The notes under the pieces were generated by a model. That model saw only the letters and a list, made by a program, of their open reading frames with translations. It was not told the DNA's origin and searched no databases. The position numbers and the translations under genes are program-made. 64,000 nucleotides of DNA from contig QHCD01000012.1 in assembly GCA_003244255.1 (NCBI GenBank), forward strand, positions 1-64,000. Direction: 5' to 3'. Shown here one piece after another: positions 8,203 through 16,428 of the stretch. Each line of letters starts with the position of its first letter. Position 1 is the first letter of the stretch. The stretch is from Pseudonocardiales bacterium (GTDB lineage Bacteria; Actinomycetota; Actinomycetes; Mycobacteriales; QHCD01).

Positions 8203-8469
8203 GTGCCGAAATCTCGGGTCCGTAAGAAGGCGGCCTACACGCCGCCGAGCAATGTGCTGCCGTCGGCGGCGACCCGAGAGAAGCGGAAGGCACCGAGCCC
8301 GACCTGGTACGTCGTGCTGATGGTGGCCGTGCTGCTGGTCGGGCTCATCTACATCGTGATCAACTACCTGAGCCCGCTGCCTGGGACCGCGGGGCTGGGC
8401 AATTGGAACCTCGCGATCGGGTTCGCGCTGATCGTGCTCGGCCTGGTGATGGCGGTCCGCTGGCGCTGA
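8203..8469 (+). CDS. crgA: Cell division protein CrgA
   Basis: Small membrane protein of 88 residues with two transmembrane helices (about 34-54 and 67-84) after a basic cytoplasmic N-terminus PKSRVRKKAAYTPP. CrgA helps recruit FtsI, FtsQ and other divisome parts and times septum formation in actinomycetes. The GTG at 8203 was chosen because a GGGAGGAG ribosome site lies five bases upstream (8191-8198) and because the encoded N-terminus matches the family; the longer open frame upstream is the antisense of srtE. It is divergent from srtE and convergent with the rhomboid gene. Confidence 0.95.
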   Translation: MPKSRVRKKAAYTPPSNVLPSAATREKRKAPSPTWYVVLMVAVLLVGLIYIVINYLSPLPGTAGLGNWNLAIGFALIVLGLVMAVRWR

Positions 8470-8565: not shown

Positions 8566-9432
8566 TTAGCGCAGCACGCCGGCCCGGTAGACCGTCAACG
8601 CGGCCAGCACCCCGAGGATCAACCCCACCCCGAGGATCTGGTACTGCAGCCGCTGCGCCTTCGGGGCGTACATCAGGACGGCGGCGCACAGCCCGCCGGC
8701 AACCAGACCGCCCAGGTGCCCGAGCCAGGAGATGTCCGGTATCCGGAACGTGATGTAGATGTTGATTACGATCGTCGGCAGCAGCGCCCGCATGTCCAGG
8801 CCGAGCTTGCGGCAGACGACGATGAGCGCGCCGAAGAGACCCACGATGGCGCCCGAAGCGCCGGCGACGTTGTTGATCGGGTTGCCGAACACGAACACGG
8901 CCACCGCTCCGCCGAGCGCGCCGACCAGGTAGATCGCGGTGTAGCGCGCGGCCCCGAACAGCCTCTCCAGCGGCGGCCCGAGCAGTGCCAGCGACACCAT
9001 GTTCAGCACCAGGTGCACGAGCCCGAAGTGCAGGAAGGCCGAGCCCAGGAACCGCCAGTACTCCTGGTGCTCGGCCACGATGATCGGGCTGAGTACCAGC
9101 CGGCTGAACAGCCGGGAGGCGTAGTTGTGCTGCACGCCGCCGGGCGAGGTGACGGCGGTAATGACGAAGACTGCGACGTTCAGCGCGCCCAGCACGAGCG
9201 TGACCAGGCCGGCCCGTTCGGCGATCTGGCCGCCGTAGGGCAGTGTCGGCGCCCGGGCGGCGCCCTTGGCGACGCAGTCGGGGCACTGGAAACCGACCGG
9301 CGCCGAACGCAGGCAGTCCGGGCAGATCGGGCGTTCGCAGCGAACGCAGCTGACGGCCGTTTCGCGGTCGGGGTGGCGGTAGCAGCGCGGTGAGATGTTC
9401 CACTCGTTCGCTGCCGCGGGCTGCGGGTTCAT
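8566..9432 (-). CDS. Rhomboid family intramembrane serine protease with N-terminal zinc ribbon
   Basis: Protein of 288 residues. The first 55 residues hold five cysteines in CYRH, CVRC, CPDC and CPDC-like spacing, a B-box/zinc-ribbon type module common in actinobacterial rhomboids. The membrane domain has about six helices. The rhomboid dyad is present: S193 in GASGAIVG and H239 in GHLGG; H135, H140 and N144 sit in the conserved helix 2 region. Such enzymes cleave substrates within the membrane. Next to ppiA and crgA, this is a usual place for the gene. Physiological substrates cannot be read from the sequence. Confidence 0.93.
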   Translation of the reverse strand: MNPQPAAANEWNISPRCYRHPDRETAVSCVRCERPICPDCLRSAPVGFQCPDCVAKGAARAPTLPYGGQIAERAGLVTLVLGALNVAVFVITAVTSPGGVQHNYASRLFSRLVLSPIIVAEHQEYWRFLGSAFLHFGLVHLVLNMVSLALLGPPLERLFGAARYTAIYLVGALGGAVAVFVFGNPINNVAGASGAIVGLFGALIVVCRKLGLDMRALLPTIVINIYITFRIPDISWLGHLGGLVAGGLCAAVLMYAPKAQRLQYQILGVGLILGVLAALTVYRAGVLR

Positions 9433-9474: not shown

Positions 9475-10017
9475 TCAGCCGGCCGGCTCACGGCGTTCGA
9501 TGCTGACCGAATCGACGGTGACGTCGGTCGCGGGCCGGTCATTGCGCCCGGTGGGTGCCGCCGCGATGGCGTCGACGACGGCCCGGCTCTCGTCGTCGGC
9601 CACCTCGCCGAAGATGGTGTGCTTACCGGTGAGCCAGGCGCTCGGGGCGACGGTGATGAAGAACTGCGAGCCGTTGGTGCCCGGGCCGGCGTTGGCCATC
9701 GCGAGCAGGTACGGCCGGTCGAACGCGAGATCGGGATGGATCTCGTCGCCGAACTTGTATCCGGGACCGCCGGTGCCGTTCCCGAGCGGGTCACCGCCCT
9801 GGATCATGAAGCCCTTGATCACGCGGTGGAAGACCGTGCCGTCGTAGAGCCGGCCGGTGGTCTTCGTCCGGGTCGTCGGGTCGGTCCACTCCCGCTCGCC
9901 CTCGGCGAGTTCGGTGAAGTTCCGCACGGTCTTGGGCGTGTGGTCACCGAACAGCCGGAGCCTGATCTCACCCGCGCTCGTGTGCAACGTTGCGAGCTGC
10001 TCGATAGCCACCGGCAT
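9475..10017 (-). CDS. ppiA: Cyclophilin-type peptidyl-prolyl cis-trans isomerase
   Basis: Single-domain cytoplasmic cyclophilin of 180 residues that accelerates proline isomerisation during folding. The signature region FHRVIKGFMIQGGDPLGNGT and the GTNGSQFFIT strand are intact, including the catalytic Arg and the Phe/Gln/Phe substrate pocket residues. The ATG at 10017 was chosen because AGAGAGGA lies at the right distance upstream and the encoded start MPVAIEQLATLHTSAGEIRL matches the family; upstream frame sequence is not family-like. The gene is divergent from the CwsA-like gene, as ppiA is from cwsA in mycobacteria. Confidence 0.94.
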   Translation of the reverse strand: MPVAIEQLATLHTSAGEIRLRLFGDHTPKTVRNFTELAEGEREWTDPTTRTKTTGRLYDGTVFHRVIKGFMIQGGDPLGNGTGGPGYKFGDEIHPDLAFDRPYLLAMANAGPGTNGSQFFITVAPSAWLTGKHTIFGEVADDESRAVVDAIAAAPTGRNDRPATDVTVDSVSIERREPAG

Positions 10018-10374
10018 CGATTCCTCTCTCATCTGCGCGACGGACCGATGCCCGTACTGGGGATCGCGCTGGGGATACGGTGTCGGATGACGGCCGCATC
10101 CCGCGAATCGTCTCATGCACGACGACGGTGGTACCTCGCGCCGTGGAGCGGCCCCGTAGAGATCGACGCAGCCGGCGCCGAGCGACGCGTAGGCACTTCT
10201 CGAAGAGGGTACGCACTTGACTCGGACCCATTCGAGTACCGTCGCCCGCTGGATTCGGCTACGGCGACGGCATCGGTGGCTGCGCCGTCACCGGCGGCGA
10301 TAGAGTCGGCGTTCCGCCGGGCAGCGAACCCGCGGTGCGGCAGGGATCGATGGCGCGATCAAGGAGGCAGCAGG
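10018..10374. other. Divergent intergenic region, ppiA / CwsA-like gene
   Basis: 357 bp without a supported gene. It must hold the promoters for both divergent genes. A TTGACT at 10216-10221 could be a -35 element for the rightward gene, but no convincing -10 lies at the right spacing. The AAGGAGG at 10361-10367 is the ribosome site of the rightward gene. No repeat or RNA gene is visible. Confidence 0.4.
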
Positions 10375-11052
10375 ATGAGGAAGTCCGGCCTGAGGCGGCG
10401 CGTGCGACCGGTGGCCCGCAACGTCGGCGGTACGGCCAGCGATCTTGCATCCAACGTGCGCAACCGGGCCGCGCCAGCGGCGTCGTCAGCCGCGTCCTCG
10501 GTGGTCGAGACGGTGCGGGGTCGTGCGTTGCCGGCCGCCGCGGCCCTTGTCGACGCCGCCCGCGAGAAGGCGGTACCGGCGCTCGAGGCCGCGAAGGACC
10601 GCGCAGCTCCGGTGGTGGGATCGGCCCGGGACCGTGCTGTGCCCGTCCTCGAGGCGGCTCGGGACCGCGCAGCTCCGGTCGCCGGTGCGGTACGCCGCCG
10701 AGCGGCGCCGCCCGCAAGCGCCGCCGCCGAGACGGTGCGCCACCATGCCGGTGACCTGGCGCATGAGATCGCCCGGAGCGCGGCGCTGGGCGCGCACCAG
10801 GTCGACCGGAGGGTCGATCGCAAGGAGGCGAAGCGGCGCATGAAGGCGATCGCGCGCGCGGCCCAGGGCAAGAAGGCTCGCCGCTGGCCGTTTGTGCTCG
10901 GCGGGGTCGTCGTCGGCGTCGGCGCGACGCTCGCGGGCGTCGCGAGCGGTCTGGTCCGCCGCGACGACGACTCGCTGATTGCGCTGGGCCGGCCCAGGGA
11001 GGACAACCACGGGCGCTGGGATTCCGCGGAGGCCGACGCCGCCGACCGGTGA
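10375..11052 (+). CDS. Ala/Arg-rich protein with C-terminal membrane helix; candidate CwsA homologue
   Basis: Protein of 225 residues. The N-terminal 140 residues are Ala/Arg-rich with repeated elements of the form ARDRAVPVLEAARDRAAPV, likely helical. A basic stretch KEAKRRMKAIARAAQGKKARR precedes one transmembrane helix at about 169-190 and a short RRDDDS-type tail. The ATG at 10375 has AAGGAGG eight bases upstream. Mycobacterial CwsA (Rv0008c), a division and polarity protein, has the same plan: helical N-part, basic motif, one C-terminal helix followed by paired arginines, and it is also divergent from ppiA and near gyrA. Position and architecture suggest the same family; overall identity looks low, so the call is tentative. 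Confidence 0.6.
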   Translation: MRKSGLRRRVRPVARNVGGTASDLASNVRNRAAPAASSAASSVVETVRGRALPAAAALVDAAREKAVPALEAAKDRAAPVVGSARDRAVPVLEAARDRAAPVAGAVRRRAAPPASAAAETVRHHAGDLAHEIARSAALGAHQVDRRVDRKEAKRRMKAIARAAQGKKARRWPFVLGGVVVGVGATLAGVASGLVRRDDDSLIALGRPREDNHGRWDSAEADAADR

Positions 11053-11103: not shown

Positions 11104-11706
11104 TCAGAGGCCGATCAGGCTCTGCCGGGCCAGTTCGGTGGCCTCGAGCGAGCTCTGCTGGTTGATGACGATGACGACGACGAGCGTGCCCCGGCTGACC
11201 GCGAGCAGCGCGCCACCGTTGGTTATCCGCACGGCACCGCCGTCAGCGAGCCGCACCGGGTTCGCCGGTCTGCCGACGGCCGTGAGTACAGCCGGCCGCG
11301 CGAGCGCCGCGGTCGCAACGTGCACAGCCGTGACCTGCGCGGCGACGCCGCCGTCGGGTCGGTAGAACGTGCATTTCGGCGGTGCCGCCGAGGTAGCCGT
11401 CGTGCGGGCGAGGTGCTGGCCGATGCTGTCCATCACGAACGGCGTGGGCAGGTACGGACACGCGGCATCCCGCACCGTCGTCCCGGTCGGTGTCGGCAAC
11501 GCCACGCTGGTCGGCGCACTCCCGGTTCGCGATGTCGCCGGCGTCGTCACTGCGGACGGCGTCGTCACCGGCGGGCTTCCCGGCGTCGTCACCGCGGACG
11601 AGGGCGTCACCGCGGACGACGGCGGACTAGCGGCATCGGAGGACGGCGGCGCGGGCGGCGAACGGTGACAGCCGGACACCGCGACCATCAGCGCGGCAGT
11701 GAGCAC
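11104..11706 (-). CDS. Putative secreted lipoprotein, DUF2020-like
   Basis: Protein of 200 residues. The N-terminus is a lipoprotein signal: a hydrophobic run followed by VAVSGC, with Cys13 as the probable lipidated residue. A Pro/Ser/Thr-rich spacer (14-72) follows. The folded part starts at CPYLPTPFVMDSIGQ and has a second Cys in KCTFYRPDGG, a pattern similar to DUF2020 proteins of Corynebacterium and Mycobacterium, which start with CPYL and have a C-F-Y motif. Function is unknown. The start codon was accepted because it gives a complete lipobox; it lies on the strand opposite the CwsA-like gene and is followed closely upstream by the Lsr2-like gene. Confidence 0.7.
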   Translation of the reverse strand: MLTAALMVAVSGCHRSPPAPPSSDAASPPSSAVTPSSAVTTPGSPPVTTPSAVTTPATSRTGSAPTSVALPTPTGTTVRDAACPYLPTPFVMDSIGQHLARTTATSAAPPKCTFYRPDGGVAAQVTAVHVATAALARPAVLTAVGRPANPVRLADGGAVRITNGGALLAVSRGTLVVVIVINQQSSLEATELARQSLIGL

Positions 11707-11725: not shown

Positions 11726-12124
11726 TCAGGACGCCGTAGCCGTGTAGCCGTCGAGAATCTCCTTCGAGAGCCGGCCTCTGTCCTTTACCTCGAAGCCATT
11801 CTCGCGGGCCCAAGCGCGGACCACATCTGGCGAGGGCCCGGCGAGACCCCGGCGGCGGGGAGTGGCACGGGTGCGCGTGGACTTGCGGGCGCGCGCCGCC
11901 TGCGTCGCCTTGCGCGGTCGCCGGGTTGCGCGGGTCGCTGGTCCGCGTCGTGCCGTGGTCGGCAGCAGGCCCGCCAGTGCAACGTTCAAGGCGTCCAGGT
12001 GTTCCTGGCATACGTCGACCTGTGCGGTGCGACCGCCGGTCTCGACCCGCACTTGCGCGATCGCGGGTACGAACCTTCCTTCGCGGTCGTCGATATCGCA
12101 GACACTCACAGCCCGCTTGGCCAC
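11726..12124 (-). CDS. Lsr2-like nucleoid-associated protein
   Basis: Protein of 132 residues. The C-terminal part RAWARENGFEVKDRGRLSKE matches the Lsr2 DNA-binding domain, which inserts an RGR-type hook into the minor groove of AT-rich DNA; here the hook is DRGR. A basic linker rich in Arg/Thr/Lys (62-96) precedes it. The N-terminal domain keeps the strand pattern of the Lsr2 dimerisation region but carries two cysteines, VSVCDIDD and VDVCQEH, absent from classical Lsr2. The GTG at 12124 follows GAGGAG at good spacing. The protein probably silences or compacts DNA. It may be a paralogue of a main Lsr2 encoded elsewhere. Confidence 0.85.
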   Translation of the reverse strand: MAKRAVSVCDIDDREGRFVPAIAQVRVETGGRTAQVDVCQEHLDALNVALAGLLPTTARRGPATRATRRPRKATQAARARKSTRTRATPRRRGLAGPSPDVVRAWARENGFEVKDRGRLSKEILDGYTATAS

Positions 12125-12608
12125 GGTTGGATCTCCTCTTCGGCTTGACAACGGAATTTCTGTTAGCGGGTCATCGCCGGCGGTGGCGATGTGCGTTGGC
12201 GACCACTTGGTCAGACGATCGGGCGTTCGTTCGTCGGATGCGATTGTGCCAGTTCGGGCAGCGCTAGTCCACGAGCCGAGCCGGAACATATGAACCATAC
12301 CAATAGCCAGCGCGAGCCTCTGCCGGCCGCGTTCGTGTCTTCGATGGGACATGCGCTGGCCATGGACTCTGCACCAGTGGTGCTGCTAAAGGGATGTGAG
12401 CCGGTCCTAACGAGGTGGACATGCCACTGCCCAGGCGCGGCCGGTCCTATTCGATTCGAGCAATACCGGGAATTCGCCCGACGAGAGCGCTGCGCTGACG
12501 GCGGAGTGAATGCCGCCGTCATCCCTGGCCGGAGGCGCGTCTCGTGCGCTCTGACGTTCGAGCTTCATCGCGGCGTTCAGGAGATAGTACAACCACGGCG
12601 GGACGCGG
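12125..12608. other. Intergenic region upstream of the Lsr2-like gene
   Basis: 484 bp with no gene that can be supported. Short open frames on both strands lack family resemblance, and one runs into the antisense of tRNA-Ala. The base composition looks a little less GC-rich than the neighbouring genes. It must contain the promoter of the Lsr2-like gene and the 3' flank of tRNA-Ala. Confidence 0.4.
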
Positions 12609-12681
12609 TGGAGACGAAGGGACTCGAACCCTCAACCCCCGCCTTGCAAAGGCGGTGCTCTGCCAGTTGAGCTACGTCCCC
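12609..12681 (-). tRNA. tRNA-Ala (anticodon TGC)
   Basis: On the minus strand the sequence folds into a full cloverleaf of 73 bases. The acceptor stem GGGGACG pairs with CGTCTCC (one G-T pair), discriminator A. The D-arm is GCTCAACTGGCAGAGC. The anticodon loop is TTTGCAA with anticodon TGC, inside the stem CCGCC/GGCGG. The T-arm has GGTTCGAGTCC. CCA is not encoded. Pairing with tRNA-Ile beside gyrA is the usual actinomycete arrangement. Confidence 0.97.
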
Positions 12682-12829: not shown

Positions 12830-12874
12830 GGGCGACTCCTTCGGCGGAAATCCTGACTGGCGAAACACTCGCTG

Positions 12875-12948
12875 TGGGCCTGGGAGGACTTGAACCTCCG
12901 GCCTCATCCTTATCAGGGATGCGCTCTAACCGACTGAGCTACAGGCCC
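12875..12948 (-). tRNA. tRNA-Ile (anticodon GAT)
   Basis: Minus-strand cloverleaf of 74 bases. Acceptor stem GGGCCTG pairs with CAGGCCC, discriminator A. D-arm GCTCAGTCGGTTAGAGC. Anticodon loop CTGATAA gives anticodon GAT within the stem CATCC/GGATG. T-arm carries GGTTCAAGTCC. CCA is not encoded. Confidence 0.97.
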
Positions 12949-13068: not shown

Positions 13069-13824
13069 TTAGTCGTGCTCGGACAGGGTCACCTCGAGGC
13101 CACCGACCATGTCGGCACACAGGTTGTAGATGAACGACCCGATCGTGGCGAGCGCAGTGAACAGCACGACGTTGACGACGCCCACCACGGCGGCGGCGCC
13201 GAGCACGATCTGCGGCGTGATGATCCGGACCGAGCTGCCGTTGATCTCATCCACGGTCTTGTTCAGCTTGCCGAAGACACCCATCCCGTCCAGGACGCCG
13301 TACAGCAAGCCGACGGCAACCATCCACACGACGAACAGGGCGATGGCGAGAACCAGGGAGAACTTCAGCATCGACCACGGATCGATGTTGCGCAGCTGCA
13401 GCCGTGCGCGGCGCGGCGCGCGAGGCGGCCGCGTCCCTACCGTCGAGGGCGCCGCCCGCCGCGGAGCACCGCTCGCCGGATCGGCGGCCGCGACCGCCGG
13501 CTGCCCGTGCCGACGGGACGCTGGCACCGTCGACACCGCGCCGCCCTCTGCACCGGTCGGTTCCCGGCCGCCGGCCTTGGCGGATTGCTCCGGCGTGGCG
13601 CGAGGGTGCCGATTCCACCATGCAGTCTCATGGGCAGTCTCATGGGCAGTCTCATGGGCAGTCTCGTGGGCGCCACCCTGCGACGCCCGCTCACGGGGGA
13701 TGCCCTCCGCGGACCCGGTCTCGCCGACCGTTCCGTGCGCTGCCGGACCAATCTGCTCAGGCGGCGGCGGATCCGACGGGACGACCCGTCCGGCGGCCAG
13801 CCCGCTGTTGCGGGGATTGGTCAC
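13069..13824 (-). CDS. DUF3566 membrane protein encoded next to gyrA
   Basis: Protein of 251 residues. The first 145 are Pro/Ala/Thr-rich and probably disordered, with four tandem HETA units. The C-terminal 105 residues form the DUF3566 domain: a motif RLQLRNIDPWSMLKFSLVLA leads into two transmembrane helices separated by the FGKLNKTVDEI loop, ending in VGGLEVTLSE. The GTG at 13824 has GGAGG six bases upstream. The family is encoded directly after gyrA across actinomycetes (Rv0007 in M. tuberculosis). Its role is not known; conserved placement and membrane topology suggest an envelope or division link. Confidence 0.9.
   Translation of the reverse strand: MTNPRNSGLAAGRVVPSDPPPPEQIGPAAHGTVGETGSAEGIPRERASQGGAHETAHETAHETAHETAWWNRHPRATPEQSAKAGGREPTGAEGGAVSTVPASRRHGQPAVAAADPASGAPRRAAPSTVGTRPPRAPRRARLQLRNIDPWSMLKFSLVLAIALFVVWMVAVGLLYGVLDGMGVFGKLNKTVDEINGSSVRIITPQIVLGAAAVVGVVNVVLFTALATIGSFIYNLCADMVGGLEVTLSEHD
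13622..13669 (-). repeat. Four 12-bp tandem repeats in the DUF3566 gene
   Basis: Four units of GCAGTCTCATGG (the last with one change) encode repeated HETA in the disordered N-terminal part of the protein. All copies are in frame, so copy-number change would alter only linker length. Confidence 0.9.

Positions 13825-13926: not shown

Positions 13927-16428
<2,502 letters not shown>

Follow-up and report, generated by a model that had tools for sequence, protein, structure and literature searches.

A ppiA-divergent gene of a Pseudonocardiales bacterium as a predicted member of a class-wide, locus-bound membrane protein family that includes DUF5324 and probably CwsA

The gene at positions 10375 to 11052 (forward strand) of the window, that is, of the whole stretch of 64,000 nucleotides analysed here, is, as judged from profile searches and gene order, a member of a class-wide and hardly described family that is bound to one locus, divergent from ppiA. 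By the same searches, DUF5324 (PF17258) is clearly a branch of this family, a relationship that the preliminary description of the gene, in which only CwsA was considered, had overlooked, and CwsA (PF10814) is probably another branch. The common position, the architecture, the profile relationship and an 11-residue repeat were established by computation. We hold it rather probable that a membrane-anchored family extends over the Actinomycetia at the locus gyrA-tRNA-[gene]/ppiA-rhomboid-crgA, with CwsA and DUF5324/SCO3857/NshA as diverged branches and with a putative polar or septal role exerted together with CrgA and DivIVA. In polar-growing actinobacteria, the conversion of a completed septum into a growing pole is still an open question; CwsA belongs to a small number of proteins described as contacting both CrgA (division) and Wag31 (pole).

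Coding sequence and gene neighbourhood

As read from the sequence, the window gene starts with the ATG at 10375, ends with the stop codon at 11050 to 11052 and encodes 225 amino acids; the ATG lies 7 bases downstream of a Shine-Dalgarno sequence (AAGGAGG, 10361 to 10367, forward strand). An intergenic region of about 357 bp (10018 to 10374) separates the gene from the divergent ppiA, which encodes a cyclophilin (9475 to 10017, reverse strand; PF00160, E = 2.8e-43; the start at 10017 is the likely one by our own reading), and ppiA is followed on this side by a rhomboid protease gene (8566 to 9432, reverse strand; PF01694, E = 1.6e-29) and crgA (8206 to 8469, forward strand, start approximate; PF06781, E = 7.6e-27). 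As the preliminary description had it, crgA is three genes off; rhomboid and ppiA lie in between. On the far side, the gene directly adjoins a DUF2020 gene (11104 to 11706, reverse strand; PF09449, E = 1.6e-12), and then come, all on the reverse strand, an Lsr2-like gene between the window gene and the tRNAs (11726 to 12124; Lsr2 DNA-binding domain, E = 7.7e-12), tRNA-Ala (12607 to 12681), tRNA-Ile (12874 to 12948), a DUF3566 gene (ORF extent, 13069 to 13824; PF12089, E = 3.4e-42) and gyrA (ORF extent, 13927 to 16428), with gyrB beyond. A relative in G001, a genome of the same GTDB family, is 43% identical over residues 32 to 197 (E = 8.7e-19); since it occupies the same place in its locus, we regard the window gene as real. 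In profile searches, a DivIVA protein was found encoded in the window's own genome and CrgA in the window itself. Note that an ORF at 8716 to 9393 (forward strand) with a weak PH-like match was dropped as antisense to the rhomboid gene. As a separate observation, the dimerisation domain of the Lsr2-like gene product was matched with an E of just 0.035, below the cut-off; the gene may possibly encode a divergent nucleoid protein beside the division locus.

Architecture of the protein

The window protein carries 37 K/R against 15 D/E before a single strongly hydrophobic helix, assigned as the transmembrane helix from the sequence and an AlphaFold2 model (residues 173 to 191; 10891 to 10947). This is preceded by a basic stretch ending in KKARRWP (residues 148 to 172; 10816 to 10890) and followed by a short tail (10948 to 11049) starting with GLVRRDDD, which is presumably outside according to the positive-inside rule. 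The basic stretch, the one C-terminal membrane helix and the Arg pair soon past it, on which the comparison with CwsA was in part built, are all present. A point absent from the preliminary description is an 11-residue repeat at residues 47 to 119 (10513 to 10731), with prolines at exactly 68, 79, 90, 101 and 112 and with the units AVPALEAAKDR / AAPVVGSARDR / AVPVLEAARDR / AAPVAGAVRRR. At lag 11 the identity lay 5.2 sd, and at lag 22 it lay 6.8 sd, above that of 500 shuffles, with no shuffle coming up to either value, and among the angles tried the hydrophobic moment was maximal at 98.2 degrees per residue, which corresponds to an 11/3 helix (18 of 1,000 shuffles reached it). In the AlphaFold2 model, long helices were predicted at residues 10 to 109 (covering most of the repeat) and 114 to 166 (a second predicted cytoplasmic helix; 10714 to 10872), together with 172 to 193 and a short one at 217 to 224, with modest confidence (mean pLDDT, 66; pTM, 0.33).

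Helical 11-/22-residue repeats with regular prolines are the repeat form of the apolipoproteins of the A-I type (PF01442), and the window protein was matched by the apolipoprotein A1/A4/E model over residues 28 to 138 (E = 3.2e-6; 27.4 of 90 bits, below the cut-off). This match and ATP-synthase-b-like ones were rejected as matches of repeat or composition, and the likeness to apolipoproteins probably reflects an analogous type of repeat and not a shared ancestry.

When 139 family members (see below) were tested for the repeat, the best lag was 11 in 61 and 22 in 13; the z values were 1.8 to 4.9 at all 12 Streptomyces loci and -1.6 to 2.5 in CwsA, where the repeat is weak or absent. Of 149 members, with duplicates counted, 135 had an arm with a net charge of +5 or more, and 107 had a neutral or acidic tail.

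Direct searches with models of known families

Neither PF10814 (CwsA) nor PF17258 (DUF5324) matched the window protein at E up to 10, no NCBIfam family was recognised within the same limit, and an HMM built from mycobacterial CwsA only scored it at -8.4 bits; no family could be assigned from the combined searches of Pfam, NCBIfam, PDB sequences and plasmids. Comparison with an alignment of 14 CwsA sequences revealed that the N-terminal LTPRERLxRGL..GPVDVTRG segment of CwsA is missing. Because the window protein gave negative results in two defining tests of PF10814, the gene was not filed as CwsA. Taken alone, these negatives would count against the CwsA reading of the preliminary description.

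Recruitment and distribution of the ppiA-divergent family

To the 140 ppiA regions that were hand-chosen from the matches in genomes of the order, class and phylum, 80 named ppiA loci were added, and all six-frame ORFs of at least 70 amino acids from the ppiA loci and from earlier PF10814 and PF17258 loci (13,870 in total) served as the search set for an iterated HMM search seeded with the window protein alone. Round 2 brought in Streptomyces DUF5324 and round 3 mycobacterial CwsA (E of about 1e-6), and the search converged at 155 of the 13,870 ORFs, with essentially one gene per locus, divergent from ppiA. The converged set recovered 143 of 149 curated members that had been picked beforehand by architecture, the missed ones being L035, L039, L040 (CwsA), L108, L119 and L178. 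Among the 12 non-curated ORFs, 11 came from loci overlooked by the picking and represent the family gene in full or in part, and the remaining one lies antisense to the window gene. As for the curation, the rule-based choice of the divergent ORF took wrong frames at some loci, and on visual inspection 28 of 127 picks were removed, including one duplicate of the window; five of the 28 were restored (family gene with the membrane helix mis-placed), and two named ones were dropped; the unsupervised search added nine loci overlooked by the rule or the pruning.

After removal of duplicates and with the six search-missed members included, the family gene was present at 147 of 204 loci in which ppiA is accompanied by rhomboid or crgA, and at 1 of 49 in which it is not (253 distinct loci). 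Named examples come from Streptomyces, Arthrobacter, Curtobacterium, Kribbella, Quadrisphaera, Glycomyces, Oerskovia, Brachybacterium, Nesterenkonia, Thermobifida and Mycobacterium. The gene was not recognised in the other 57 of the 204 loci; L109, L110 and L111 (all of genus g41), as well as many loci from the families f2, f3, f4 and f40, are of this kind, having ppiA with rhomboid or crgA, and the pattern of loss could be compared with the growth mode. At L105, L221 and L291, the gene is split across two frames or broken off, either by sequencing error or by true decay. Of the 148 class genomes searched, 30 gave a PF17258 match, and ppiA adjoined in 29 of the 30 loci fetched.

For whole-genome searches, a profile (A1) was built from 57 members with the window, Mycobacterium and Streptomyces rows left out; with Pfam, 17 of these members matched PF17258, 13 the apolipoprotein model, two PF10814 and one LEA_4. 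Searched against 24 genomes, A1 gave the window gene as its top match in the window's own genome (E = 4.2e-17). The ppiA-divergent gene was the top match of the genome in 10 of 10 Streptomyces genomes, and in 13 mycobacteria cwsA was first in seven, second in two, fifth in one and not listed in three. A match at E up to 1e-4 was obtained in 105 of 148 genomes of the class. When the best match had E < 1e-8, it was divergent to ppiA in 78 of 82 genomes (31 of these 82 supplied rows of A1 by our own count; in the other 51, 47 lay at ppiA); weaker best matches were mostly elsewhere (3 of 23 at ppiA). Among 149 genomes of the phylum, 33 had a match, of which 24 were in other classes and weak (best E = 9.8e-9). 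Two best matches of the family profile, G033:C1:4749740-4750048 and G243:C1:1750348-1750788, lie away from ppiA and are possibly paralogues, relocated copies or chance matches.

The family membership was also examined by leave-group-out scoring, with 100 shuffles per protein in which arm, basic stretch, membrane helix and tail were shuffled separately. The window protein scored 59.4 bits (shuffle maximum, 6.9; n = 100), its relative at L081 51.7 bits (shuffle maximum, 14.4) and the proteins of the 12 Streptomyces loci 52.2 to 73.0 bits (shuffles, at most 18.6). The 14 CwsA sequences scored 8.1 to 32.4 bits, nine of them above all of their own shuffles; the scores of the remaining five were reached by 1, 2, 12, 5 and 2 of 100 shuffles.

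Relationship to CwsA and DUF5324

PF10814 matched in 13 genomes of one genus in the same order, and in 13 of 13 ppiA was divergent and CrgA within reach, with DUF3566 and gyrA also present at several of the loci. The genus was read as Mycobacterium, by inference, because the locus of Mycobacterium sp. IS-1264 (L298) carries the same protein. Since these loci share their neighbours with the window gene, its position closely matches that of cwsA (Rv0008c/MSMEG_0023), in place and orientation beside ppiA, crgA, DUF3566 and gyrA, and the gene order pointed out in the preliminary description is borne out. CwsA also resembles the window protein in having a basic cytoplasmic part, one C-terminal membrane helix and RR beyond it; however, it is shorter, has a conserved N-terminal LTPRERLxRGLxYTAxGPVDVTRG and shows no clear 11-residue repeat.

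The profile of CwsA was compared with that of the rest of the family by hhalign, and a score of 45.6 (probability, 93%) was obtained over 32 columns comprising the basic stretch and the membrane helix, whereas none of 150 architecture-preserving column permutations exceeded 32.7. The reversed profile scored 23.0, and the profiles of CrgA, DUF3566, rhomboid and PknB, taken as unrelated membrane families, scored 13.9 to 31.3. A CwsA-only HMM scored at least 12 bits in 17 of 135 other members and in 3 of 2,694 shuffles. We read these comparisons as showing a relationship between the membrane-proximal block of CwsA and the family that goes further than shared composition; the N-terminal part of CwsA is not recognisably related to it at the sequence level. 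The homology proposed in the preliminary description is thus supported by an indirect path, by way of the class-wide locus family and its match to the CwsA profile in a profile-profile comparison, as suggested there, but not through the CwsA models themselves, which missed the window protein, nor through the N-terminal motif. The further suggestion that the family is much wider than thought gains support, indirectly, from its class-wide occurrence at one locus.

A PF10814 match elsewhere in the window's own genome (L044; G000:C11:12065-12373; 32 bits) was over the cut-off and yet rejected as a false positive; it runs from the last part of a sigma-factor-like gene into the membrane-coding start of the next one, which encodes a basic protein with a single membrane helix (names by our own reading). 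Therefore, basic-membrane matches alone were not used as evidence, and CwsA annotations made from PF10814 alone deserve caution.

DUF5324 shares with the window protein the place, the 11-residue repeats and the order of ALRG, basic stretch and membrane helix; its tail runs KWWDKQANPDWLVEPP, and that of the window protein RRDDD. SCO3857 of S. coelicolor, an NshA-like protein of spore maturation which we take to have been filed so far as a nosiheptide resistance regulator, and NshA of S. actuosus are counted with DUF5324, SCO3857 on the grounds of its position and length and not of its sequence; the DUF5324 proteins at L051 and L053 have 233 amino acids, the same length as SCO3857. According to the excerpt of PMC5069765 cited here, SCO3857 has 233 amino acids, shares 80.7% identity with NshA, lies divergent to the PPIase gene SCO3856 and has a predicted site for the dormancy regulator OsdR upstream. 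In that of PMC3878966, its expression is reported to need whiA and whiH, and its deletion to reduce the heat resistance of spores, with colonies of normal appearance. Among the open-licence literature, no paper joining CwsA with DUF5324, SCO3857 or NshA was found.

Possible function and alternative explanations

Rv3852 of M. tuberculosis, which we take to lie away from the ppiA/crgA locus, is by description like the window protein in being basic with a C-terminal membrane helix. It is reported as a membrane-anchored nucleoid protein that binds Wag31 (excerpt of PMC8233713). CwsA is reported to be at the poles and the septum, to bind CrgA and Wag31 and to be required for the placement of Wag31, and its deletion to alter growth, shape and Wag31 placement (excerpts of PMC3989709 and PMC8233713). 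By analogy, the most likely function of the window protein would be that of a polar or septal membrane scaffold acting with CrgA and DivIVA. We consider a CwsA-like mode of action the likeliest reading, at about an even chance or a little better. The basic N-terminal arm would be cytoplasmic and form an 11/3 amphipathic helix, kinked at the regular prolines, which may rest along acidic inner-membrane lipid, with the C-terminal helix as the putative membrane anchor. Arm and anchor together would put the protein where CrgA and DivIVA/Wag31 act, at the septum and the new poles, and it might there help to seat the DivIVA-led machinery of wall synthesis, as reported for CwsA in mycobacteria.

Positional replacement would explain the same data if the window gene and DUF5324 formed one family and CwsA were an unrelated protein in the same slot with a convergent basic-membrane end. 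The restriction of the similarity to the 32 columns around the membrane helix, the N-terminal motif and lack of clear repeats in CwsA, the -8.4 bits of the CwsA HMM and the firing of PF10814 on unrelated basic-membrane proteins are all compatible with it. Nevertheless, CwsA shares place and orientation with the family gene and was recruited in round 3, its hhalign score beats all permutations and all four unrelated families, and cwsA tops 7 of 13 mycobacterial genomes with a profile that lacks mycobacterial rows; we regard replacement as unlikely. It is likewise improbable that the protein binds the nucleoid, with a basic Ala-rich arm tying origin-proximal DNA to the membrane, as described for Rv3852, in place of a role in wall synthesis. 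The excess of K/R in the arm, the charge of most family members, the Lsr2-like gene nearby and the reported binding of Wag31 by Rv3852 (PMC8233713) would suit this, but the strict 11-residue, proline-punctuated amphipathic pattern fits lipid surfaces better than DNA, and no DNA-binding family of Pfam or NCBIfam matched the window protein.

Somewhat unlikely, in our estimate, is a protein of envelope or membrane stress, whose LEA- or apolipoprotein-like helices would guard or remodel the membrane in spores or dormant cells, the division locus being incidental. The phenotype of the SCO3857 deletion (PMC3878966), the predicted OsdR site (PMC5069765) and the weak apolipoprotein and LEA_4 matches (13 and 1 of the 57 members) point in this direction; against it, numerous lineages that do not sporulate, among them Arthrobacter, Curtobacterium and Oerskovia, have kept the gene beside crgA, and the deletion of CwsA affects growth, shape and Wag31 placement (PMC3989709, PMC8233713).

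If the scaffold reading is carried further, CwsA may tentatively be seen not as a mycobacterial invention but as a branch, reduced in length, of a polar/septal protein that is ancient in actinomycetes; a membrane-anchored, apolipoprotein-like, proline-punctuated amphipathic belt might sense where the membrane of septa and poles is curved or acidic and hand the CrgA-marked division site to DivIVA, as SCO3857 might in Streptomyces. This extended version is possible, though we think it rather less probable than its opposite. A 2013 review states, in the excerpt cited, that S. coelicolor has no obvious CwsA-like protein (PMC4255298); if SCO3857 and the window gene are relatives of CwsA, this argument falls, CwsA, DUF5324 and NshA merge into one family, and the CrgA-CwsA-DivIVA model becomes testable in non-pathogenic, genetically easy hosts. 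In one paper, a protein of Corynebacterium pseudotuberculosis is annotated as CwsA (excerpt of PMC7456259).
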